IMG/VR virus record: IMGVR_UViG_3300017917_003409 | Coordinates: 1-45,549 of that record | Reading direction: 5' to 3' (one strand) | DNA length: 45,549 nucleotides | Source of the DNA: a virus | Shown: piece by piece, positions 3,594 through 35,112 of the stretch | How positions within the stretch are numbered: position 1 is the stretch's first letter | How the letters are laid out: every line of letters begins with the position of its first letter | Notes under the pieces: generated by a model | Databases searched by the model: none | What the model was told of the DNA's origin: nothing | The model's input: the letters and a program-made list of their open reading frames with translations, nothing else | Translations under genes and position numbers: made by a program

Positions 3594-5347
3594 TAACCGA
3601 GATTAGTAATTGAATATTTGATGGATCCGTTGATGCCTGTGTTAGAAGCAGTGTATGCAATAGTAACAGTGCCAGTGTTGTCAGTAGCAGTTAAAGTGAC
3701 GCCAGTGGAACTATTTTCAACATAGTCGTCAGTATACACAAATCCTGTGCCACTTGCAACAGTGAGTGTTCCGCTGCGATAGCTGGTGTCTCGAATTATG
3801 GTATAATCCACTTTGAATGCTTTGATACCGTTGCCACCAGAGTTGGTAACAATTACAAGGTTTGCGCCAGCATTATTCAAAATTGTGTCTTGAATGCCTG
3901 CAGTTCTGCTATAGGTACCAAGATCAAGTGTGTTGGCCAGTCCAGTGACTTGAACATTGTTTTGATAAAAACTTAGAGCACGAGAGTTCATGCTCATGGC
4001 CATTGAGTTAGTATTGTTTAACTTAATTCGTGAATATGTTGTGGATTGTGTGTTATTTCTTACAAACATATCACCAACGCTGATATTGTTATTGGCATCA
4101 ATGTCGATGATTGCAGTTGCCGGACTAGCGTACCCTTGGAAATGATTACCTACATCGTAGAATGTGTTATACCCTGTGGCGTTGAGACTAACATTGGTTA
4201 TTACTATACCTTCGTTGTAGATATTATCAAACGTGTTTTGTAGAATTCTAACTCCAGTTGGTCCACCGTCAGTGGGACTAACATCACCAAGAACAATACC
4301 CTGGTGCAGGGTATCAAACAAACTATTGCTGATTGTTACGCCTTCTATTTGTTGATCTGTAGAAGTAGCATAATCAAACTTAGAAAAACTGCAACTATCC
4401 CAGACAATATTTCTGCAAACCAGACTGGGACTACTGATCCAACGTATTGCGGCAATGTCGTCGGTCGCTGTATTTAAATTTGCTTGTACCAGTGGGCCTT
4501 CGACAGCAACATCTTTAAAAATGCAATCTGGTGCTTTTTCAATCAGCACGCCATTTTGTATTACATTGGTCATAAATTTAATACCAGTGATCGAAATGTT
4601 GCCAGGTGAAGTTGCACCATTGGTAGCAATGTTCGTACCAGTTTGTTGCAAACTGTCAGCAGTTTGTACGATATATGCCGGCAAGGTTTCTGCAGCCCAG
4701 TATGTTCCATTTGTGACCAATGTTCCAATAGGAACACTGGCTAGACTTCGATAATACAATCCTCCAGAGCTAACAAGAACACCTGCAGAATATGCAATAG
4801 AAGATGTGTGCGGTTGCACATAAAAATAAATGATTGTGTTCTCTGAGCCTTCTCCATACAAAGTGGCATACGGAGGAATATCTAGGGTGTCAGTGATAAC
4901 GTATACACCTGCTGGAAAAAATATGCTGCGTCGAATTTGTGGGTTGCTTTGGCGGCAATAAATTTGATATAATGCACGATTGATATTGGAGTGAACGTCG
5001 GTGATACCGTCACCGGTGGCTCCAAAGTCTGAAATTACTGCATAACTGTCAAGTCTACGTTGCAAACTTTGACTGACAGGAGTACCCGATGTAGCACCAG
5101 TTTGTACAGTGTAACCTGCATTTTCGCCCTTGTAGGTATATTCTGTAGCAAAACTTAAAATATCAGAAAATTCTGTTAAGATTTCTGTGTTGCCTACAAC
5201 TGGCGCACCTTCTTCCAAGGTACCGTTGCCAATGAACAGTCTGCGTTGATCTGCTGCCCAACCCAACTCGGCTGATGCCAGCGGTTGCGGTAAATCTTCA
5301 ATTAAACCCTTGCGCTGGGTGATGCGTGAAATCTGTACTATTGCCAC
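3593..5347 (-). CDS. Tailspike/tail fibre with pectate-lyase-like beta helix
   Basis: A 584-aa adsorption protein. The first ~60 residues (VQISRITQRKG...ELGWAADQRRLFIGNG) resemble the small attachment domain found at the N-terminus of phage receptor-binding proteins such as Mtd. From about residue 80 the block DFGATGDGITD followed by IFFPAGVYVITDTL is the typical entry to the Pectate_lyase_3 right-handed beta helix, which binds or cuts polysaccharide. The middle and C-terminus are Asn/Thr/Ser-rich beta repeats. The chosen start is GTG at 5347, with AAGGA upstream; a TAAATA late-promoter-like box lies about 25 bases upstream. Polysaccharide depolymerase activity is plausible but catalytic residues cannot be assigned by eye. 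The following 142-aa gene is translationally coupled. Confidence 0.85.
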   Translation of the reverse strand: MAIVQISRITQRKGLIEDLPQPLASAELGWAADQRRLFIGNGTLEEGAPVVGNTEILTEFSDILSFATEYTYKGENAGYTVQTGATSGTPVSQSLQRRLDSYAVISDFGATGDGITDVHSNINRALYQIYCRQSNPQIRRSIFFPAGVYVITDTLDIPPYATLYGEGSENTIIYFYVQPHTSSIAYSAGVLVSSGGLYYRSLASVPIGTLVTNGTYWAAETLPAYIVQTADSLQQTGTNIATNGATSPGNISITGIKFMTNVIQNGVLIEKAPDCIFKDVAVEGPLVQANLNTATDDIAAIRWISSPSLVCRNIVWDSCSFSKFDYATSTDQQIEGVTISNSLFDTLHQGIVLGDVSPTDGGPTGVRILQNTFDNIYNEGIVITNVSLNATGYNTFYDVGNHFQGYASPATAIIDIDANNNISVGDMFVRNNTQSTTYSRIKLNNTNSMAMSMNSRALSFYQNNVQVTGLANTLDLGTYSRTAGIQDTILNNAGANLVIVTNSGGNGIKAFKVDYTIIRDTSYRSGTLTVASGTGFVYTDDYVENSSTGVTLTATDNTGTVTIAYTASNTGINGSIKYSITNLG

Positions 5348-5371
5348 TTTTGTGATCCTTGAGTGATCACA

Positions 5372-5378
5372 TATTTAG
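5372..5378 (-). promoter_or_regulatory. Late-promoter-like box for the tailspike
   Basis: CTAAATA on the minus strand, resembling the T4 late consensus TATAAATA. It overlaps the TAA stop of the upstream nuclease gene (ATGCGCTAAATA). The same ATGCGCTAAATAT string sits at the terminase stop near 41258-41270. The short leader also has a 6-bp inverted repeat (GTGATC/GATCAC, 5352-5370) that encloses and partly pairs the AAGGA ribosome site. Confidence 0.55.
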
Positions 5379-6085
5379 CGCATCAAATAGTATAACTCAA
5401 CTCGTTTCATCCACTCATTTGACCAGTATGCAAACTCGTCTTTTTGCACTTCAAACTCTAGATATTCAGGGGTAGAATAAGAGCCATCTGCCAACAGCTT
5501 GGGCTGGCAAGCCATTAAAATAACACCGTCTTCGATGTTGGTACCGTGCGTTTCGTTGTGTGCAGCAGCATAGGCAGCTAATTGTAGGAAATAATCCTCA
5601 ATCCACTCTCGCTTCTTGGGCTTGTTGGTTTGTTTAAAATCCATGATTGCAGGACGACCTTTCCACACACCCAACAAGTCTGTGGTACCTGCATATAACC
5701 CACTATAATACAACGGAACTTCAACACCCCAATACTCGTCAACGTGCTGTAGACCTTTGAGAATAATTTCTGCTGCCATGAACCAGCTGGGATGAGCATA
5801 CGGGTTGGAGGGCAAAGGTTTCATGTCTGCTGACATCACATAATGCTCTAAGTAGGCATGCATCCTTGTGCCACGATTTGCAGCTTCTGTGGTAATTTCC
5901 TGAGCACGTTTTTCGCCTACGGCCTTTTTCCAGTTGTCAAGAGCTTGGCGTTTTTCTTGTGGTTTTGTGCGGTCAAGAATGGTAGTAACCGAAGGTACTT
6001 TGCTGCCGTCAGGCAAACAGTAATGTCGCTTGCCGTCAATGGTAGTGCGGTCTAAAGGTGTGTAATTATAGCGTGGTGTAATCAT
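5375..6085 (-). CDS. PD-(D/E)XK superfamily nuclease (RecB/Cas4-like)
   Basis: A 236-aa nuclease of the type phages use in DNA recombination or host-DNA breakdown. The expected core is visible in order: RGTRMHAYLE with His76, VEVPL (Glu122), YAGTTDLLG with Asp136, PAIMDFKQTNK with Asp149-x-Lys151, and the QLAAYAAA helix with Gln168. The C-terminal four-cysteine Fe-S cluster of Cas4/AddB nucleases is not visible; only isolated cysteines occur. The ATG at 6085 shares a base with the stop of the preceding 55-aa gene (TAATG). It is the last gene of the 8272-5375 operon. Family is firm; substrate is not known. Confidence 0.88.
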   Translation of the reverse strand: MITPRYNYTPLDRTTIDGKRHYCLPDGSKVPSVTTILDRTKPQEKRQALDNWKKAVGEKRAQEITTEAANRGTRMHAYLEHYVMSADMKPLPSNPYAHPSWFMAAEIILKGLQHVDEYWGVEVPLYYSGLYAGTTDLLGVWKGRPAIMDFKQTNKPKKREWIEDYFLQLAAYAAAHNETHGTNIEDGVILMACQPKLLADGSYSTPEYLEFEVQKDEFAYWSNEWMKRVELYYLMR

Positions 6086-6252
6086 TAGATAACTTTGAAA
6101 AATTCTGCTTCGGTTAGTATTTGTTTTAATTGAGGAATAACTTTGGCATCGAGGACAACTTTGTAGCCTTCCCGGAGAGTAAAAACTAGCTTACCGTCTT
6201 TTACTTCTACAGTGCAGTATACATCACCTGCGGGCGTAACAATATTCCTCAT
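6085..6252 (-). CDS. Small conserved-position protein (55 aa)
   Basis: Reading the minus strand from the ATG at 6252 gives a 55-aa protein starting MRNIVTPAGDVY and ending EAEFFKVI. It looks like a small beta-strand-then-helix domain, with no membrane segment. Both ends are coupled: the ATG overlaps the dCMP deaminase stop (ATGA) and the stop overlaps the nuclease start (TAATG). This tight fit, and the absence of any other gene in the gap, are the main support. Function unknown. Confidence 0.7.
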   Translation of the reverse strand: MRNIVTPAGDVYCTVEVKDGKLVFTLREGYKVVLDAKVIPQLKQILTEAEFFKVI

Positions 6253-6680
6253 ATTTTGTTTACTTCAATTCCTGACTGCTGGAGAAAATTAACCCCAGAA
6301 TTATTCCTATACTCACTGCCAAACCAAACCCTACGAATACCAGATTGGTAGATAAGCTTGGCACAATCAAGGCAAGGAGCATGAGTAACAAATATATCAG
6401 CACCAACCCCGCTGTTATGGCTTCTAGCCAGCTTTGCAATCGCGTTTGATTCTGCATGCAATACCTCAGGTCTTGTGACCAAACTTGTTTGTTTTGTTTG
6501 TGGATCAGTCCACTCAAATTCACAGTTGTTGTCCCAACCTGCAGGCATGCCGTTGTAGCCGTAGCTGATCACTGTGTCATCTTTGACAATAACTGCACCT
6601 ACATGCAGACGTTGGGCATGGCTGAGTTCGGCTGTGCGACGAGCCCAGTCCATGTATAAATCAATGTATTTTTGTTTCAA
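6249..6680 (-). CDS. Deoxycytidylate (dCMP) deaminase
   Basis: The enzyme converts dCMP to dUMP, feeding dTMP synthesis. The zinc site of the family is complete: His75-Ala-Glu77 (VLHAESNAI) and Pro-Cys103-x-x-Cys106 (APCLDC). The GYNGMPAGWDNNCE block binds substrate in dCMP deaminases and separates it from RNA-editing relatives. The 143-aa length fits phage members. The start is TTG at 6680, overlapping the iscA-like stop as TTGA, which supports a coupled start; a later ATG at residue 10 would leave less of the first helix. It works in the same pathway as nrdA. Confidence 0.93.
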   Translation of the reverse strand: MKQKYIDLYMDWARRTAELSHAQRLHVGAVIVKDDTVISYGYNGMPAGWDNNCEFEWTDPQTKQTSLVTRPEVLHAESNAIAKLARSHNSGVGADIFVTHAPCLDCAKLIYQSGIRRVWFGSEYRNNSGVNFLQQSGIEVNKI

Positions 6681-7000
6681 ACTCTAAAACTTTCTCCGCA
6701 GCCGCAACGATCGCGTTCGTTGGGATTACGGAACTCAAAACCTTCGTTTAATCCATTACGCACATAGTCTATGGTTATACCGTATAGATAAGGCCTGTGT
6801 TTGGGATCCATAAAAACTCGTACCCCGTTGCTTTCGTGGTGTTCTACACAATGAGGATGTTCGTGGTCTTGATATTCTAACACATACGCAAGTCCAGAGC
6901 AACCTGTGGTTTTGACACCAATTCGAATTCCTAGTCCTTGGCCACGTTTTTGAATTTGTTGTTGTATTTTACGAGCAGCAATGTCAGTGACTGTGATCAT
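6677..7000 (-). CDS. iscA: IscA-type Fe-S cluster assembly protein
   Basis: A-type carrier of the ISC system, which passes iron or Fe-S clusters to client proteins. The three ligand cysteines are present: Cys34 in TTGCSGLAYVL, and Cys99 and Cys101 in the C-terminal CGCGESF. The length of 107 aa equals E. coli IscA, and the C-terminal GLNEGFEFRNPN...CGCGESF block is nearly that of E. coli. The segment between residues 44 and 60 is His-rich (DHEHPHCVEHH), unlike typical IscA. The gene overlaps the GNAT gene start-side by 17 bases and the deaminase by 4. IscU is encoded one gene upstream; no IscS, HscA or ferredoxin gene is visible. Confidence 0.95.
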   Translation of the reverse strand: MITVTDIAARKIQQQIQKRGQGLGIRIGVKTTGCSGLAYVLEYQDHEHPHCVEHHESNGVRVFMDPKHRPYLYGITIDYVRNGLNEGFEFRNPNERDRCGCGESFRV

Positions 7001-7559
7001 TTATCTTACCTGTCCAGTTTCGCAGCCAGGCACGTTGCAGACGCACAATGTCTGCTGCTAGTTCACCTTGTTCTCGAACAAAGTTTGTAGTGTAATCGAG
7101 CACAGTAGGATCGGGTAACTTTACTTTGGCAGTGAGTTCGTGCCCTGCTCTTTCCATGCTCTTGAGCCCGTGTTTGCGAGCCAAGTGTTGAATCTTTTGA
7201 TTTTCTGTAATGCAGTGCATGTACAAGACTTCGACGCCGTGTGTCTTGCCCCAATCAATCATGTGGTCCATGAGTTCGTTGGCAATGCCGCGTCCTTGAT
7301 ATTCTTTTTCAACGCTGACTGCCAACTCCCAATCCGAACCTTCGCGAGCTAGGTGCCCAAATCCTACAATTCGATTGTCTGTGTAGTATGTAAAGATGTG
7401 ATGATCATCCCGATGATACAGGATGTTGAGAATTATAGAATCAATGGTTCCTGCAGATGCAGCGAAACCAAACCTAGTGTAACGATCTTCGTTTGTTAGG
7501 TTTTTTAAATGCTCGGCGTATTCTTTGAGATATTCAATGCGGCTGTGCTGTATTTTCAT
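6984..7559 (-). CDS. GNAT-family N-acetyltransferase
   Basis: A 191-aa protein with the GNAT acetyl-CoA loop YQGRGIANELM at about residues 107-117 (Q/R-x-x-G-x-G/A), preceded by the WELAVSVEKE strand and followed by a helix and VEVLYMHCITEN strand. About 40 residues after the core domain (from LPDPTVLDYT) form an extra helical tail. The substrate cannot be read from sequence. It sits between iscU (26-base overlap) and iscA (17-base overlap), which is unusual for ISC loci and suggests it is co-expressed with them. Possible targets include a host protein, a phage protein or a small amine. Confidence 0.85.
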   Translation of the reverse strand: MKIQHSRIEYLKEYAEHLKNLTNEDRYTRFGFAASAGTIDSIILNILYHRDDHHIFTYYTDNRIVGFGHLAREGSDWELAVSVEKEYQGRGIANELMDHMIDWGKTHGVEVLYMHCITENQKIQHLARKHGLKSMERAGHELTAKVKLPDPTVLDYTTNFVREQGELAADIVRLQRAWLRNWTGKINDHSH

Positions 7560-7929
7560 GACGTTTTTTATAATCTTCTACAGCCGCTTTGATTGCATCT
7601 TCAGCAAGGATTGAACAATGGATTTTGACTGGGGGCAGGGCAAGTTCTTCAGCAATCTGGCTATTTTTAAGAGCTGCGGCTTCGTCCAACGTTTTGCCTT
7701 TAACCCACTCGGTAACAAGACTACTGGATGCAATCGCACTTCCGCAACCGTAGGTTTTGAACCTGGCATCAGTGATAACTCCGTCTTCAACTTTGATTTG
7801 CAATTTCATAACGTCACCGCAGGCAGGTGCACCGACCATACCGGTACCAACAGTGGGATCGTCTTTGGCAAAGCTACCCACGTTGCGTGGGTTTTCATAA
7901 TGATCGATAACTTGATTACTGTAAGCCAT
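7534..7929 (-). CDS. iscU: IscU Fe-S cluster scaffold protein
   Basis: IscU is the scaffold on which IscS and iron build [2Fe-2S] clusters. The 131-aa protein keeps the three cluster cysteines Cys37 (GAPACGDVM), Cys62 (YGCGSAIASSS) and Cys105 (KIHCSILAED), plus Asp39 and His104. It also keeps the LPPVK motif (98-102) that binds the HscA chaperone. By eye it is very close to E. coli IscU along its whole length, so it should plug into the host ISC machinery. It overlaps the His-rich gene by 14 bases and the GNAT gene by 26. The close match suggests a proteobacterial origin. Confidence 0.97.
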   Translation of the reverse strand: MAYSNQVIDHYENPRNVGSFAKDDPTVGTGMVGAPACGDVMKLQIKVEDGVITDARFKTYGCGSAIASSSLVTEWVKGKTLDEAAALKNSQIAEELALPPVKIHCSILAEDAIKAAVEDYKKRHENTAQPH

Positions 7930-8224
7930 TTTGTACTAATACCCATCGATAACAATTGCAGTTGGCATCCAACAACTGCTCATAACGATATCCCATTGGA
8001 GGCACTGGCAAGGTTTGGGGAATGTTGTAAACCACTGGCGGTGGAGGAGGAGGGGTCGCTGCTCGTGTGGCTCCGTACACTACCAAACCACCAATCACTG
8101 CTGGTGCTACCCAGCCCCAGTCGTTGCCGCCGTGGTGATGATGATGGTGGCGATAACCATGATAAGGACCTGCTTGTGCAGCCGCACAGCTCAGAGCAAA
8201 AAACAAAACAAGCAATTTTTTCAT
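7916..8224 (-). CDS. Small exported His-rich protein
   Basis: A 102-aa protein with a clear Sec signal peptide (MKKLLVLFFALSCAAAQA, cleavage probably after AQA). A run of six histidines follows (GYRHHHHHHGG), then a glycine-zipper-like hydrophobic stretch (WVAPAVIGGLVVYGATRA), a six-proline run, and a C-terminal domain with CNC (LLDANCNCYRWVLV). The His run and Cys pair could bind metal in the periplasm; this is inference. It is the first gene after the 8244-8272 promoter, with AGGAG before the ATG, and overlaps iscU. The form is that of a bacterial envelope protein rather than a virion part, suggesting a host-derived gene. Confidence 0.85.
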   Translation of the reverse strand: MKKLLVLFFALSCAAAQAGPYHGYRHHHHHHGGNDWGWVAPAVIGGLVVYGATRAATPPPPPPVVYNIPQTLPVPPMGYRYEQLLDANCNCYRWVLVQNGLQ

Positions 8225-8243
8225 TTGCGACTCCTATGTAGAT

Positions 8244-8272
8244 AGTATACTACAATAACGTTATTGAGTCAA
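8244..8272 (-). promoter_or_regulatory. Sigma70-type promoter of the His-rich/iscU operon with palindrome in spacer
   Basis: Minus strand TTGACT, 17-base spacer, TATACT. The predicted start (about 8237) leaves a short leader with AGGAG. The spacer contains a perfect 14-base palindrome, CAATAACGTTATTG (8253-8266), positioned as an operator would be. A repressor or activator site is inference. Confidence 0.8.
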
Positions 8273-8291
8273 TGTTGGTTGACCCAAAAGA

Positions 8292-8651
8292 TTAAACGCC
8301 GCGATCTTTTCCGGCAGCTTTTTTGGCTGCTGCTGCCACAATATCCTGTGCCTTGTTAACAGGCATATTTGGTGTTTTGGTTTCACCGCCTTTGAACACC
8401 ACAGGGTCATTGGTATTTGGTGTAAGAGGTTCGAGTACGTTGCTCAAAGGAGGCTGGTTTACCAATTCGGGGAGATTGTTTCGGGTAACCATGATTCCCA
8501 AATTACGGGCAACGTCTATAAATGCAGCTTGATCGATTTGTTTGCGAGAATTGGTATCCTCGGCGCGACCTGCAAGAAAGTCCACCAAGCCCAACAATTT
8601 GTCAGAACTTGGTGTACCTGGCATTGAAGTATCAACTTCAAAGATTTTCAT
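8292..8651 (-). CDS. Probable virion-associated protein (119 aa)
   Basis: Function unknown. The protein starts MKIFEV, giving an Ile-x-Glu at positions 3-5 like its neighbours, which fits N-terminal trimming by a T4 gp21-type prohead protease (inference). Residues 20-60 are helical, the middle is Pro/Asn/Thr-rich and the C-terminus is a Lys/Ala helix (DIVAAAAKKAAGK). It is translationally coupled to the 308-aa gene upstream (ATGA at 8651). No membrane segment or signal peptide. Confidence 0.7.
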   Translation of the reverse strand: MKIFEVDTSMPGTPSSDKLLGLVDFLAGRAEDTNSRKQIDQAAFIDVARNLGIMVTRNNLPELVNQPPLSNVLEPLTPNTNDPVVFKGGETKTPNMPVNKAQDIVAAAAKKAAGKDRGV

Positions 8652-9577
8652 TATCGCTTGGCTCGTCCCAGTGCAGCACCAGCTGCTTCAGCATCGGCAT
8701 CAAGCTCTGCACCAACGTCAGCACCAGCCTCTGCACCCATTTCAGCACCTGCAGCAGCACCCATGTCAGCACCCATGTCAGCACCCATTTCGGCTCCGGC
8801 TTGAGCGCCAGCAGCGTCCATGCCTGGAACAGCAGGAGCAGCCTGACCAGTTACTACGCCCAAGGCCTGATCAAGTTGACCTTTGGCTTGTTGTAGACTT
8901 TGCATCAATGCTGTAAGAGCAGCAGTAACATCTGTGTTGAATTGTTGAGCTTGATCCATACCAACTTGATTCTTGATTGAATCAACCAGTGCAGGAAGTT
9001 CTTTGAACTGTAGTTCACTGACATCTTCTAACATGCCCTGCATGCTGTCAACCATGTCTTGAGCAGCAAGAACAACTTGAGCTTGTTGAACTTCACTTTC
9101 TTTGAGCATGCGATAAGCGCGGCTCACACGGCTTTCGGTATGCATTAATGCAATACCAGCAACCAGCTTTTGCTCATCAGGAGTAAGGTTTTGTCCTTTG
9201 CTGGCCTTGGTAAGTGCAGCCTTGACTTTGGGATCTTTTTGTGCAGCAATATTTTTTGCTACTTCGCCGGCAGAGCCCGCAGCTGGTGCAGCACCAGTAG
9301 ATGGTTGAGCAGCACCTTGTACGGCCATTTGCTCAGCGATACGGCTGGTCAATGCCTGTTCCATCATAACAAGCTTGAGATACTCAGGGTTTCTCTCGCT
9401 GGTATGACTTGCAGTGGAACTACGCTGCTCGCCTAGAATTGATTGCACACGACCAAGCATGTATTGAGCTTGACGAATGTTTAATTTGTCAAACTTAATT
9501 TTTCCACCAAAGTAACTTTCGAAAACTTTGGAGATTTGTTTGCTAGGCGACGTGGCCGCTAGTTCATACAGTTTCAT
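8651..9577 (-). CDS. Probable virion/internal head protein with Ala-Gly-Glu repeat tail (308 aa)
   Basis: Function unknown. The N-terminus (MKLYEL, then a helical region with YFGGKIKFDKLNIRQAQYMLGRVQ) and the long helical middle suggest a structural or scaffold-like role. The last ~65 residues are built from degenerate repeats of GAEMGADMGA and similar acidic Ala/Gly motifs, encoded at about 8660-8830. MKLYE gives a Leu-x-Glu at positions 3-5, a possible prohead-protease site. It has its own late-promoter-like box (9601-9607) and an AGAGGA ribosome site. Confidence 0.75.
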   Translation of the reverse strand: MKLYELAATSPSKQISKVFESYFGGKIKFDKLNIRQAQYMLGRVQSILGEQRSSTASHTSERNPEYLKLVMMEQALTSRIAEQMAVQGAAQPSTGAAPAAGSAGEVAKNIAAQKDPKVKAALTKASKGQNLTPDEQKLVAGIALMHTESRVSRAYRMLKESEVQQAQVVLAAQDMVDSMQGMLEDVSELQFKELPALVDSIKNQVGMDQAQQFNTDVTAALTALMQSLQQAKGQLDQALGVVTGQAAPAVPGMDAAGAQAGAEMGADMGADMGAAAGAEMGAEAGADVGAELDADAEAAGAALGRAKR

Positions 9578-11244: not shown

Positions 11245-13128
11245 TCATTGAGGGTTGTTTCGGGCACGATTTCTAGCAGTGAAATCAAAGCGATTCACAG
11301 CTTTTGCGTAGCCTGCAGGAGTAGCCATGACCCAGCCTTCGTTGCCTGGACTTTGTTGATCTAACTGTTGTAGCACATTCATCTTGAGCTCGTGCAACTG
11401 CAAGAACAGTGTAAATGCAGCAGCTAGGCCTTGTGTATTGCTGGCCGGGCTCTTGAGATATTCCACAATATTGGCAAACTTGCGCGGTGTAACCTTGGTC
11501 TGTAACCACTCACCAAACTCAGGCAGTAAATTGTCAAAGTTTCCTGACGGGATTTTGTAGTTGATGAAGTCAATACAAAGCTTGGCCAAGTCAGTGATCT
11601 GTGCTGCTCGCAGTTCTGCAGGGTTAAACAAGGTATCCACTGCTGCTGCACTTTGACGCAGTGTAGATCGTATTTGTTTTACTAGGCCTGGATCTGCTGC
11701 AACTTGTTTGGCAGCAATTGGTTCAATCAACAGCAGGCCGGGAACATCATTAAATCCCACACGTTTCAGCGGCTGTCGTTCATCACCTTGGTCAGCATAC
11801 ATCGAGTGCATGGCTATGCCAATGTTGCTGTTGCCAATTCTTTGTCCCAAACTGCTTTTTGCAGGAATTCTGTATTCCACAGTGTTGGGTTGGAAAACAT
11901 AATTGCCGGCAACCACAGGAGGAGTTTCTGTATACAGTAAGTCGCCCTTGACATATCCACGGAAGTTTGCAGGAAGAGCAGCCTCCAACGCAGGCCACAA
12001 ACGAGTGTATAACTGTATAAGCCCACTGCGTTCGCCACTGCGTTGGCTTTGGATCTGTGCCATCATTTTAGGACTGGTCGCAAGTCCATCGTAGCCTTTG
12101 GCTTGGAATCCTGAATCATCTGTAAGCACAAACTCACCTGTGCTGGGCTTGCGACCAAACACCACAGCAGGCTTGCCGTCCCACTTTACTGTGGTAGTAG
12201 CAGGTTGCTCAGCAGCATGCGACAGTATATCCAAGGCCTGTTGGACACCGCGACTACCGCTGCGGAACACTAGGTCTTCCAAGTGTTCAATACCTTTGGC
12301 ACGACCGCCCACGCCGGCTTGTTCGGCTTCGACCAGTGGTTGCATACCTTGATTAACGATACGATCACGTAACCTAGCAAGAAAACTAACGTCATTTTCT
12401 TTGACTGCCGAAGGACTAGGCAGTCCTTCCTTGGCCAAGTGTTCTTCAAAGTCTGCAACTTTTTTGGCACGATCGGGATCTTTGGCCAGTGCAGCATAAA
12501 TGCTTTCCACAGTAGACAGATCCTGTCGTGTGGCCTTGGGACCTAGAATAATTCTAGCAACTTCGTCGGGATCTTGGCTGACCAATTGGTTAGTTGTTCG
12601 TAAAAACATGCCATTGGCACCAATTTTCAAACCCTGTTGCTTGGCAATAGAGCTCATGAGTATAGCACGATTCATACCTTTGTAAGCTGAATCGGGTCCC
12701 GATGAATAGTAGAATATACCCCAATCTACATTAGGGAAAAACATAAAATCAGTTTGCACAAATCCGTTGTTTGCATCGCCAGCAATGGGTGTTCGGAAAT
12801 GTACTTCTCCTGCAGCCTTTACAAATTCTCGAGGATCTTGTCCTTGGCTTTGAACAAACTGTGTAAGTTTAGCTGCAAGCTCGGCCTTGGATATGGTGCT
12901 GGTGTCAACTGCAAGATCAAGGTCACCAGAGTCGGGCTTTTTGCCTGTGCTACCTAACCAGTGACTAGGATACCCTGTTGTAGGATCTTCGGGTCCTGTT
13001 AAATCTAGGCCTGTGACAGCCTCTAACCACTGAACAGTTGCTGGAATATCTTCTTGTTTGATGCGTTGGGTAAGCGGTACGCCCATTTTGTCTTTGAATA
13101 CGTTACCGCCTTCAAGTAATCTGTTCAT
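11245..13128 (-). CDS. Pol-beta-like nucleotidyltransferase fused to a ligase-like (DUF6267-type) domain
   Basis: A 627-aa protein with two apparent catalytic modules. Residues 1-~180 carry the nucleotidyltransferase pattern: Gly59-Ser60, Asp69-x-Asp71 (SGDLDLAVD) and a third Asp127 (VQTDFMF). Residues ~280-627 begin with EHLEDLVF and carry TVKWDGKPAVVFGR, a KxDG motif (Lys315-Asp317-Gly318) like motif I of ATP-dependent RNA/DNA ligases, then YVKGDLLYT (motif III-like), FQPNTVEYRIP, and near the end EGWVM plus YAKAVNRFDF (motif IV/V-like). The second module resembles the DUF6267 family of T4-like cyanophages as I recall it. The ATG overlaps the previous stop (ATGA). It sits among virion-type genes, so it may be packaged. 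Activity is untested inference. Confidence 0.75.
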   Translation of the reverse strand: MNRLLEGGNVFKDKMGVPLTQRIKQEDIPATVQWLEAVTGLDLTGPEDPTTGYPSHWLGSTGKKPDSGDLDLAVDTSTISKAELAAKLTQFVQSQGQDPREFVKAAGEVHFRTPIAGDANNGFVQTDFMFFPNVDWGIFYYSSGPDSAYKGMNRAILMSSIAKQQGLKIGANGMFLRTTNQLVSQDPDEVARIILGPKATRQDLSTVESIYAALAKDPDRAKKVADFEEHLAKEGLPSPSAVKENDVSFLARLRDRIVNQGMQPLVEAEQAGVGGRAKGIEHLEDLVFRSGSRGVQQALDILSHAAEQPATTTVKWDGKPAVVFGRKPSTGEFVLTDDSGFQAKGYDGLATSPKMMAQIQSQRSGERSGLIQLYTRLWPALEAALPANFRGYVKGDLLYTETPPVVAGNYVFQPNTVEYRIPAKSSLGQRIGNSNIGIAMHSMYADQGDERQPLKRVGFNDVPGLLLIEPIAAKQVAADPGLVKQIRSTLRQSAAAVDTLFNPAELRAAQITDLAKLCIDFINYKIPSGNFDNLLPEFGEWLQTKVTPRKFANIVEYLKSPASNTQGLAAAFTLFLQLHELKMNVLQQLDQQSPGNEGWVMATPAGYAKAVNRFDFTARNRARNNPQ

Positions 13129-13628
13129 CGTCGTTTTCTTTGTCGTTGTGGTCCACGGGCAACGGGTTTTACTGGTGCCTTGGGAATAATTTCTTCTTTG
13201 CCTAGCCCTTGATCAGCCAAACGTTCTAGATATGCAACACCAGTTGCTCCGACTGGTTGATTAATTTCGTTGAACCATCCTTTGACAGTTTTAAAGTAAA
13301 CTCCGCGGGTTTTTGGATCAACAACACGAATTCTGCGTCCGGGTGCTACCATAATTCCCTGATCCTGTGCAGCAGGTGTAGGGGCAGCGGCAGCGGCAGG
13401 GACAGCAGGGGCAGCAGCGGCAGGTGTAGAAGCAGCAGCAGGAGCAGCAGCGGGTTCGGTTGTTGCACTTGCCGGGTCAGCTACTTTGCTAGTTGCTGTA
13501 GCAGGGACTTTTTTTCCATATCGATCTTTTTCAAAAGCATCGACACCAATGGCCGATTGTGTAAATCTGTTTGCCATTGCTTTGCCAATTTCCCCTGCAA
13601 AACCTTCAGTGATTTCACGAATCTGCAT
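13125..13628 (-). CDS. Probable virion-associated protein with Ala/Pro linker (167 aa)
   Basis: Function unknown. The N-terminus MQIREITEG has two Ile-x-Glu sites (possible prohead-protease cleavage). A low-complexity Ala/Pro/Thr stretch spans about residues 45-90. A small beta-rich C-terminal domain (PGRRIRVVDPKTRGVYFKTVKGWFNEI) follows, and the protein ends in a basic tail (PQRQRKRR), suggesting nucleic-acid contact. AAGGAG precedes the ATG. It is coupled to the nucleotidyltransferase-ligase gene (ATGA overlap), so the two probably act together. Confidence 0.7.
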   Translation of the reverse strand: MQIREITEGFAGEIGKAMANRFTQSAIGVDAFEKDRYGKKVPATATSKVADPASATTEPAAAPAAASTPAAAAPAVPAAAAAPTPAAQDQGIMVAPGRRIRVVDPKTRGVYFKTVKGWFNEINQPVGATGVAYLERLADQGLGKEEIIPKAPVKPVARGPQRQRKRR

Positions 13629-13863
13629 GTGTTCTCCTTACGCTGCGAGAGAACTTGCCAGCATCTTTGCAGCGAATGGCATTTAATAACTTGCGTGTGA
13701 GATTTTCTGCTTGGTCGGGTGGATAAGCATCTTCAATTTGTTCTACTAGGCGTATGGCACTGGCAATTATATTGCTAGCACGGCTTTCAATCAGCAGGCG
13801 CTGATCACGCTCGATATACAACGAGTCTAGTTCTTCTAAAATGCTCCGTGTCTTTTTTTGCAT
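13615..13863 (-). CDS. Small helical hypothetical protein (82 aa)
   Basis: An all-helical, charged 82-aa protein (RSILEELDSLYIERDQRL...) with no membrane segment and no recognised family. It is the first gene of the leftward late cluster, 20 bases after a GTAAATA box, and overlaps the 167-aa gene by 14 bases. Confidence 0.65.
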   Translation of the reverse strand: MQKKTRSILEELDSLYIERDQRLLIESRASNIIASAIRLVEQIEDAYPPDQAENLTRKLLNAIRCKDAGKFSRSVRRTHADS

Positions 13864-33674: not shown

Positions 33675-34351
33675 AATTTCTGCTGGCAGTATTCTGTGTA
33701 GATTCGTTCTCTATGCCACTCTTCTCCCTGTGGTGTATCAGCAAATTCGTGAAAGCAAGGAGTACCCAAAGTGTAATGCAAGAGCTTGGCATTGGGGTTG
33801 GCACCGTATTCATCGGGCAACCAATTCCATTCTTTGGGGAGTTCGCCAATGCGTTCGTCCGTCAGCCACGAGAAGCGGTGGAGGAAACTACCCGTGGATT
33901 GCTGGACGAACTCAGGGGTAAGTTTCCTGTTAGGAAAGCTAGCACAATTCCACAAAATAACACTAGACCAATTTTTTCTAGGATAATCTTCATTTTTTGC
34001 TCCTAAATATTTTACAGGCATTCGAGTTCGATAATCATGTTTGACCACTTGAACATCGCAGGTAGGATCTCGCATGCTCCATAATTCAGCTATATCTCCA
34101 CGCACAATCATGTCGCCGTCAATAAAAATAGCATGCCCTTCGTAGTCCTGCAAATAAGGAACCAAAAATCGTGTGTAGATAAAATGATTAGAACCGTCGG
34201 TGTGCGTTTCATTATAATCTTGAAATAAGTTCAACGCCACAGGAACTATGGCCACTGGCCTCGAACTATTGCGAATAATTGAATTAGCACAAGTATGGTA
34301 TGCAATGGCTTCTCTTGGATCATACCCAATGTAAACAGGAATAGCTTTCAT
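33671..34351 (-). CDS. GT8-like glycosyltransferase (226 aa)
   Basis: The N-terminus KAIPVYIGYDPREAIAYHTCANSI and the Asp78-Gly-Asp80 metal motif (AIFIDGDMIVRGDIAELW) are typical of GT8-like retaining transferases. The C-terminus has a conserved LLHYTLGTPCFHEF loop. It is coupled to the cytidylyltransferase-cupin gene upstream (ATGA) and to paralogue D downstream (ATGA). Confidence 0.85.
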   Translation of the reverse strand: MKAIPVYIGYDPREAIAYHTCANSIIRNSSRPVAIVPVALNLFQDYNETHTDGSNHFIYTRFLVPYLQDYEGHAIFIDGDMIVRGDIAELWSMRDPTCDVQVVKHDYRTRMPVKYLGAKNEDYPRKNWSSVILWNCASFPNRKLTPEFVQQSTGSFLHRFSWLTDERIGELPKEWNWLPDEYGANPNAKLLHYTLGTPCFHEFADTPQGEEWHRERIYTEYCQQKL

Positions 34352-35112
34352 TTGCGCTCAATGTCCTCTTCTACACAGTTATCTCCATACTGTATTTCAA
34401 TGAGTTTTAAAGGCTCATCGGTTTCGTTGCACAACTGATGCCACTCATTGAGTTTGATCCATGTTGATTGATGTTTTGTTGGCTTAGACATTACATCATA
34501 GTCTGTGCTGTTTGGATCTACGGTGTAAACAGTGGCCTGCCCTTCAGCCACAAACCAAAATTCAGCTCTGTGCTCGTGGCGTTGCATGCTTAGGCAGGTT
34601 TTTGGTGCCACCGTAAGTTCTTTGAGCTTTACGTGATTACCTACTTCGTGCAGCACACGATAGTATCCCCAGGTGCGCTCAGTCTTGGGCTTTTTCCAGT
34701 CTTCAAGAATCCAGCTAGAACTATTCTTTTTATCTTCTCCCCCGACCCCAAAAACAAAGGTCAAGTTAGAATCCACTAAATCCATTTCGGGTATATTATC
34801 TTTTGTACGATCGCCGCCATTGGCAAATACAATTTCGGCATTGGGGTACTGCTTCCTAACACGAACAATAGCATCTCGGCTAGAACCATCGTCGTCGTTG
34901 TAAGTGATAACTTCGTCTACAATCCGTAGAGAACTAGTCAGCGCAAATCTTTCGCTCATTGGCATGAATGGTCGACCTTTTTTACGAGTCAACCATTCAT
35001 CGCTGTTGAGTCCTACAATAAGTCTGTCGCCGAGTTGTTTTGCAGCATGAAAGTATGCCAAATGCCCGCTGTGAATTGGGTCAAAGCCACCTGTTACTAA
35101 TACGATCTTCAT
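34348..35112 (-). CDS. Nucleotidyltransferase-cupin fusion (254 aa)
   Basis: Residues 1-~135 are a HxGH nucleotidyltransferase (VTGGFDPIHSGHLAYF, His14-x-x-His17) like the C-terminal domain of HldE/RfaE or glycerol-3-phosphate cytidylyltransferase, which makes activated sugars. Residues ~150-254 are a cupin (MQRHEHRAEFWFVAEGQATVY, then WHQLCNETDEPLKLIEIQYG) like the mannose-6-phosphate isomerase C-terminal domain. The fusion could both activate and modify one sugar; this is inference. A GTAAATA box lies six bases before the ATG, with no clear ribosome site. Confidence 0.85.
   Translation of the reverse strand: MKIVLVTGGFDPIHSGHLAYFHAAKQLGDRLIVGLNSDEWLTRKKGRPFMPMSERFALTSSLRIVDEVITYNDDDGSSRDAIVRVRKQYPNAEIVFANGGDRTKDNIPEMDLVDSNLTFVFGVGGEDKKNSSSWILEDWKKPKTERTWGYYRVLHEVGNHVKLKELTVAPKTCLSMQRHEHRAEFWFVAEGQATVYTVDPNSTDYDVMSKPTKHQSTWIKLNEWHQLCNETDEPLKLIEIQYGDNCVEEDIERK

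Follow-up and report, generated by a model that had tools for sequence, protein, structure and literature searches.

The locus at positions 11,245 to 13,128 of this viral DNA raises the question of what an apparently bifunctional nucleic-acid enzyme does and where it would do it. The initial annotation, made from the letters of the window (the whole 45,549-nt stretch, IMG/VR record IMGVR_UViG_3300017917_003409), described a fusion of a polymerase-beta-type nucleotidyltransferase (NTase) with a ligase-like domain, read as a putative end-repair or tagging enzyme that would add a nucleotide before joining ends and that is possibly carried in the virion. We followed this up computationally, covering the folds, the integrity of the catalytic residues, the fusion or adjacency of the two domains, the protease cut motifs, and the presence of a matching protease in related viruses.

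Architecture of the precursor

The AlphaFold2 model of the 627-aa protein, built on a 30-sequence alignment, has a mean pLDDT of 89.6, with segments below 50 only at residues 1-7, 242-248 and 253-274 (Table 1). The disorder is thus confined to the leader and the linker, each of which bears the T4 prohead-protease motif L/I-x-E. The motifs named in the initial annotation lie where it had placed them (G59-S60, D69-x-D71, D127, K315-W-D-G, G395-D-L-L-Y, E597-G-W-V and K609-A-V-N-R), and its assignment of the two halves to the NTase and ligase superfamilies was borne out by fold searches. PADLOC and NCBIfam searches with the window protein returned zero matches.

Table 1 Features of the precursor and its neighbours (positions in the window)
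Feature	Position	Strand	Evidence and remarks
Precursor ORF, 627 aa, ATG start; leader, NTase, disordered linker, DUF6267	11245..13128	-	ORF call, Pfam, folds, conserved fusion
Leader MNRLLE, 6 residues, predicted prohead-protease cut E6/G7	13111..13128	-	T4 motif L/I-x-E; disordered in model
NTase domain, residues 7-241, predicted DNA polymerase beta superfamily fold	12406..13110	-	Structure prediction and fold search
NTase motif G59-S60 ... S67-G-D69-x-D71	12916..12954	-	Homologue conservation
VQTDFMF, third catalytic aspartate D127	12739..12759	-	Homologue conservation
Inter-domain linker, residues 242-279	12292..12405	-	pLDDT <50 at 242-248 and 253-274
Predicted second prohead-protease cut L265-V-E267/A268, between the enzymes	12325..12336	-	Motif counts against shuffles
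DUF6267 ligase-like domain, residues 280-620	11269..12291	-	Pfam and folds
Motif I K315-W-D-G, predicted adenylylated lysine	12175..12186	-	Homologue conservation
Motif III G395-D396-L-L-Y	11932..11946	-	Homologue conservation
All-helical insertion, residues 480-592, between motifs IIIa and IV	11353..11691	-	Model secondary structure
Motif IV E597-G-W-V	11329..11340	-	Homologue conservation
Motif V K609-A-V-N-R613	11290..11304	-	Homologue conservation
Ala/Pro-rich neighbour starting MQIREITE/G (L/I-x-E site)	13125..13628	-	ORF; few homologues found
Neighbour, 'virion structural protein' phrog_11854	13615..13863	-	PHROG
Neighbour, 'virion structural protein' phrog_14154	8651..9577	-	PHROG

The N-terminal half resembles DNA polymerase beta

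Pfam left residues 1-279 unmatched. In the model, residues 8-208 aligned with DNA polymerase beta (4jwm; VIA-align Z 10.2, rmsd 3.3, 162 residues aligned, 14% identity), and the best PDB folds in Foldseek were DNA polymerases lambda, beta and mu, with probability 1.0 and weak E-values (1.4e-3, none <0.001). Judged by this model, the half has the predicted fold of the polymerase beta nucleotidyltransferase superfamily, and it also has the GS...DxD...D residues of that superfamily. D69 and D71 are kept in 118 of 118 covering sequences and D127 in 124 of 124, and all three aspartates are likewise invariant in distant NTases (25-32% identity) from phages PA5oct, Phosso and Atu_ph07. The loci used for the conservation counts here and below were collected mostly with patterns that lack the motif under test, one of the six patterns containing EGWV.

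Beyond the superfamily, the NTase matched none of the named families sought. Among 19 NTase domains, no Pfam model of polymerase X or beta matched at E up to 1, nor did the RlaP model (PF10127), and RlaP was also absent from the six large relatives searched. PDB sequence searches with the NTase profile or the ligase profile gave nothing significant. The initial annotation had suggested comparing the predicted structure with T4 Rnl1/Rnl2 and with CCA-adding enzymes; the ligase half found its expected matches (see below), but among the fold matches listed for the NTase, polymerases beta, lambda and mu come closest and a CCA-adding enzyme does not appear. As family X entries occupy that match list, a CCA-adding enzyme may still be the nearest relative of the NTase. 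A Harvfovirus polymerase family X protein turned up among the viral matches, and the NTase looks like a virus family since the search for cellular homologues gave just two weak matches, in metagenome-assembled genomes. In Flavobacterium phage immuto (L088, positions 4998-8631), an NTase starting MGGNVF is followed by a protein of 907 aa in which an HxGH-like domain and a HEMIHH motif resembling that of zinc proteases accompany a second NTase motif of the polymerase-beta-like type.

The C-terminal half is a putative covalent ligase of the DUF6267 family

Residues 280-620 belong to DUF6267 (PF19782; E 6.2e-32, score 111.8 bits, cut-off 27), and PHROG assigns the protein to phrog_455, of unknown function. 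The initial annotation had described DUF6267 as a family of T4-like phages that is not known to have an assigned activity. The second part agrees with Pfam, which gives no activity, and with our literature search, which found no paper on DUF6267. The first part holds for membership and needs qualification: DUF6267, found in 470 phage records, occurs mainly in T4-like cyanophages and their relatives, where it stands alone and pairs with a different nucleotidyltransferase, of the HxGH type.

Modeled alone, the ligase half reached a pLDDT of 91.3 and a pTM of 0.85, and its best 50 structural matches in VIA-align were all polynucleotide ligases. The top match was the Naegleria RNA ligase 6vt9 (rmsd 4.0, 180 residues aligned), at a Z of 8.8 that barely exceeds the level which that tool calls common, followed by T4 Rnl2 (7.6), human ligase 1 (7.5) and T4 Rnl1 (7.0); Foldseek placed archaeal and human DNA ligases first, at E 2.5e-3 with none <0.001. 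Since none of these scores and E-values is more than modest, the fold argument for the ligase as well as for the NTase relies on the consistency of the match lists and the intact order of the motifs, not on single scores. By motif order and predicted fold, the DUF6267 half would then belong to the superfamily of covalent nucleotidyltransferases (polynucleotide ligases).

The motifs of the two halves are more than coincidence. In the ligase half, K315, D317, G318 and D396 are kept in 106 of 106 covering sequences, E597 in 102 of 102 and K609 in 101 of 102. Thus the residues whose conservation the initial annotation had singled out, Lys315, Asp69 and Asp71, are invariant in the sequences that cover them. 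The motifs KWDG, GD, EG[FWY]V and KxVxR are likewise invariant across the DUF6267 proteins of cyanophages and others at 24-31% identity, with the exception of phage DLP_6, which has KYDG at motif I. Motif III reads GD here versus GE in the ligase superfamily. When K170, E227, E312 and K326 of the Naegleria ligase, which the titles of its structure entries name as mutated residues, are taken as catalytic, their spacing is 57-85-14 compared with 81-201-12 here, and subtracting the helical insertion of 113 residues (480-592), which separates motifs IIIa and IV, brings the middle interval to 88. The secondary structure of the model shows no evident OB-fold domain, and in this it is like the Rnl-type RNA ligases. 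Pfam showed no match to the Rnl2/RNA_ligase family (PF09414), and hhalign against a T4 Rnl2 alignment gave a probability of 0.07%; because the latter comparison was not significant, we do not assign the half to any named family of RNA ligases.

Predicted prohead-protease sites in the leader and the linker

In T4, propeptides of 7-19 residues are removed from Alt and the internal proteins by gp21, which cleaves after L/I-x-E (PMC9026906). The protein studied here begins MNRLLE/GGNVF, the slash marking the predicted cut, and such a leader is present in 153 of 155 distinct homologue N-termini. All 153 have L, I or V at P3 (128, 20 and 5, respectively) and E at P1, while P2 takes 12 different residues over the whole set, giving 21 different tripeptides. 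The two leaderless proteins start M-GGNVF, and the NTases of Phosso and Atu_ph07 start MGG, which is the predicted mature N-terminus. In the N-termini of four neighbouring gene families, about 417 distinct sequences, we found 0 leader-type sites; a fifth neighbouring family, of virion structural proteins, has one. Judged by its N-terminal propeptide ending in L/I-x-E, the precursor would be a capsid-targeted internal head protein of the T4 type.

The linker has a comparable site. The motif L/I-x-E-[AGS] occurs there in 100 of 124 sequences against a mean of 14.7 and a maximum of 26 in shuffles, a relaxed motif occurs in 121 of 124 against 35.7, and the position of the site differs between lineages. 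The homologues are related, so that these counts are not independent events; after thinning to <65% identity, which addresses kinship only partly, the site was kept in 16 of 21 sequences, where shuffles gave 2.4 and windows drawn at random from the folded bodies 0.3. Standalone and split DUF6267 proteins also frequently have a leader site of their own (MILDFINMLTE/A, MKSFLSFISE/S, LLTE/S, LAE/S).

Of 13 related IMG/VR records, three (G002, G003 and G008) encode a gp21-type (S77) protease; all three have the fused gene and a gp23-type capsid protein, and two of them are 252 and 349 kb. The protease is also present in all four isolates with homologues that were checked, PA5oct, Phosso, Atu_ph07 and P-TIM40. 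We did not find it in the window or in four large records of 215-343 kb (G001, G004, G005 and G006), a real gap in the capsid evidence, and the S77 protein of G003 (encoded at L237 1363-2001, minus strand) used as a query against G001 and others found nothing; these records may be incomplete or their protease may have diverged. An HK97-type protease (S78) was sought in the large relatives and none was found. Since the NTases of PA5oct, Phosso and Atu_ph07 are leaderless though these phages have the protease, packaging cannot everywhere need the leader.

The gene cluster in the window includes two PHROG virion structural families (Table 1). The virion structural family at 8651-9577 has an N-terminal site of the V-F-E-S type in 82 of 90 homologues, and the PA5oct homologue of the NTase and most of its neighbours are labelled structural protein, ESI-MS/MS, in a GenBank note. 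The virion carriage that the initial annotation gave as a possibility is much strengthened by this mass-spectrometry annotation and by the protease sites. No tRNA genes were found in the window or in six related loci.

Fusion, split genes and alternative partners

Both domains lie in a single frame in 216 of 236 loci (at least 216 as fetched). Three others (L158, L159 and L161) have split versions, with NTase and DUF6267 encoded by adjacent genes, each with an L/I/V-x-E leader. The initial reading of one fused protein therefore describes the gene well, but the two activities probably part from one chain, because the linker carries a site of the prohead-protease type. At the contig IMGVR_UViG_3300042396_000111 (L157/L195), the NTase half is 63% identical to that of the window and the ligase half 31%, a gap that points to domain-level recombination with a break near the linker.

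A different ligase-like protein is encoded next to the NTase, or close to it, in Phosso, Atu_ph07 and PA5oct, with the motifs KLDGS...EGVV in the first two and KIDG...EGYV...VKIVDK in PA5oct EST35_0228. These weakly annotated proteins of jumbo phages (L086 2306-3646, which is EST35_0228; L085 3806-5041; L087 4013-4987) are mutually homologous (E 8e-10 to 2e-28), and those of Atu_ph07 and Phosso lean to Pfam RNA_ligase at E 0.002 and 0.085, below the cut-off. The DUF6267 profile gave no significant match to the Phosso and Atu_ph07 proteins, though their KxDG motifs align. A polymerase-beta-like NTase is thus paired repeatedly with a ligase, which comes from DUF6267 in one case and from this second family in the other.

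Standalone DUF6267 has another partner, being paired with or fused to an HxGH protein that resembles cytidylyltransferases and NMN adenylyltransferases. This protein adjoins or is fused with DUF6267 at L084 (6174-7247), L165 (3345-4703) and L166 (6369-8450), and a further case is BFVD A0A0M6VVW4 of S-PM2 (591 aa). The HxGH protein of P-TIM40 has a capsid-targeting-like start, MRFLDFIKE/A, and an HxGH cytidylyltransferase is present in virions of cyanophage S-CREM2 (PMC10665884). DUF6267 proteins of the P-TIM40 type in cyanophages have no leader and are sited among replication genes. A tblastn alignment reaching back to query residue 167 had hinted at an NTase upstream of the cyanophage DUF6267, which we rejected since the upstream proteins are not NTases. 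By eye, genes just upstream of standalone DUF6267 resemble PD-(D/E)xK nucleases (for example AKADLEL...FELKEK; L082 4434-5297, L083 4057-5091, L084 4154-4933, L282 2881-3966), with no Pfam match, and a trio of nuclease, NTase and ligase is possible. The window has, at 34348-35112, a cytidylyltransferase-like domain fused with a mannose-6-phosphate isomerase-type cupin.

Proposed mechanism and its alternatives

We propose, with about an even chance of being right, that the protein is a capsid-targeted precursor that is cut into two head-borne enzymes, which heal and seal nucleic-acid ends after injection, RNA being a likelier substrate than DNA. The cutting, the injection of the products, both activities and the substrate are what we infer from the features described above. 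The short leader would draw the precursor into the prohead core, where a T4-gp21-type prohead protease would cleave after E6 and E267 (or at nearby linker sites), releasing the polymerase-beta-fold NTase starting GGNVF and the DUF6267 covalent (lysyl-AMP) ligase. Head-protease cut signals flank both enzymes, so both are probably packed in the capsid and injected; they would be kept in the mature head and delivered to the host along with the genome. There, the NTase would replace missing nucleotides at 3' ends and the ligase would close the break ahead of phage gene expression, the likeliest substrate being RNA, such as tRNA cleaved by host anticodon nucleases, and DNA the main alternative. The fuller reading, a polyprotein repair kit from which the prohead protease yields a template-using or terminal NTase and a member of a new covalent ligase family (DUF6267), both of them injected, is held more tentatively, at slightly less than even confidence. 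We know of no phage head protease for which the splitting of two fused nucleic-acid enzymes has been demonstrated.

The preference for RNA comes from the lack of an evident OB domain, the RNA ligases at the top of the finer comparison, and the phage pairing of RlaP with RNA ligase (PMC7824862). DNA has to be taken seriously as an alternative, since the NTase resembles polymerase X and its nearest listed folds are DNA polymerases. A capsid-borne, processed pair could thus act in gap filling and in nick sealing or end joining of the incoming or damaged phage genome, and the Harvfovirus protein among the viral matches as well as the archaeal and human DNA ligases that lead the Foldseek list agree with this; prompt repair of gaps and nicks would presumably be useful for large genomes and head-full packaging. 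DNA ligases clamp the duplex with an OB-fold domain, however, for which the ligase half has no evident counterpart, the finer aligner ranks RNA ligases first, and the sub-threshold leaning of the Atu_ph07 and Phosso neighbours is to RNA_ligase, so that we regard DNA as an unlikely though credible substrate. The HxGH partner of standalone DUF6267 is a puzzle for the RNA and DNA readings alike. It would be odd for a pure end-repair pair, and would sit better with both domains modifying host proteins, tRNA or small molecules in an AMPylation-like manner, in which case they would be injected to take over the host much as T4 Alt is.

Head-borne enzymes are frequently take-over enzymes (PMC9026906), but the high-Z neighbours of the ligase domain are all polynucleotide ligases and the listed neighbours of the NTase are template-using polymerases, which makes such a take-over role improbable. 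We consider it still less probable that the protein acts as an uncut bifunctional repair enzyme inside the cell, with the L/I-x-E motifs left uncleaved or only the leader removed. The cuts are predicted from motifs, and the standalone DUF6267 proteins of cyanophages are leaderless and lie among early replication genes; against this, the sites have variable flanks, take lineage-specific positions in the linker and are rare in folded bodies, and both PHROG and the PA5oct mass-spectrometry annotation class the cluster as virion-structural. We continue to favour the processed, head-borne pair acting on RNA ends.

If so, DUF6267, present in hundreds of genomes of T4-like cyanophages and relatives, gains a testable function, and the analysis also delineates a polymerase-beta-like family that is without a Pfam model. 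Under the proposal, phages would deliver by injection a pair of break-repair enzymes ready for use, produced and separated by the protease that matures the head. With tRNA as the substrate, the pair would counter host anticodon nucleases pre-emptively; with DNA, it would be the phage counterpart of the polymerase X and ligase repair of large eukaryotic viruses.

Comparison with known systems

By curated score residues 280-620 belong to DUF6267 (PF19782/phrog_455), with which they have all the motif residues in common. The members in phage records are mostly alone (~400 aa) or joined to a cytidyltransferase-like domain, whereas the partner here is a polymerase-beta-like half.

Among two-enzyme systems, the African swine fever virus pair is similar in that there, too, a large DNA virus combines a small polymerase-X fold with a ligase. 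Its ligase has an OB domain, and to our knowledge the pair has no capsid-protease sites. The two viral enzymes, polymerase X and DNA ligase, for which gap-filling repair has been proposed (PMC5330486, PMC6344480), are separate proteins, and no sequence relation to the present fusion was shown. RlaP, a polymerase-beta NTase, and RNA ligase form a repair pairing of phages and bacteria (PMC7824862), and the resemblance to RlaP with Rnl1/Rnl2 lies in the genetic linkage, in large phages, of a polymerase-beta-superfamily NTase to a ligase of the lysyl-AMP type. A linkage of this type to a putative RNA-ligase-type enzyme occurs here as a fusion in 216 loci, as adjacent genes in 3, and as neighbours in Phosso, Atu_ph07 and PA5oct. 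The present NTase differs in not matching the RlaP model, and the ligase is not Rnl1 or Rnl2 by sequence; moreover, the two are fused and apparently capsid-targeted.

In the structure of its ligase half, the protein is comparable to the Naegleria gruberi RNA ligase and T4 Rnl2, sharing the predicted nucleotidyltransferase-domain fold and the ordered motifs I, III, IV and V with comparable spacing. It differs from them in having no significant sequence similarity to Rnl2, Asp in place of Glu in motif III, a large helical insertion between IIIa and IV, and neither their accessory OB domain nor their C-terminal domain. With the internal head proteins and Alt of T4 it shares the short propeptide ending in L/I-x-E, and several relatives have T4-type protease and capsid genes; a second cut that parts two enzymes, as predicted here, is not described for the T4 system (PMC9026906), and would set this precursor apart from it.
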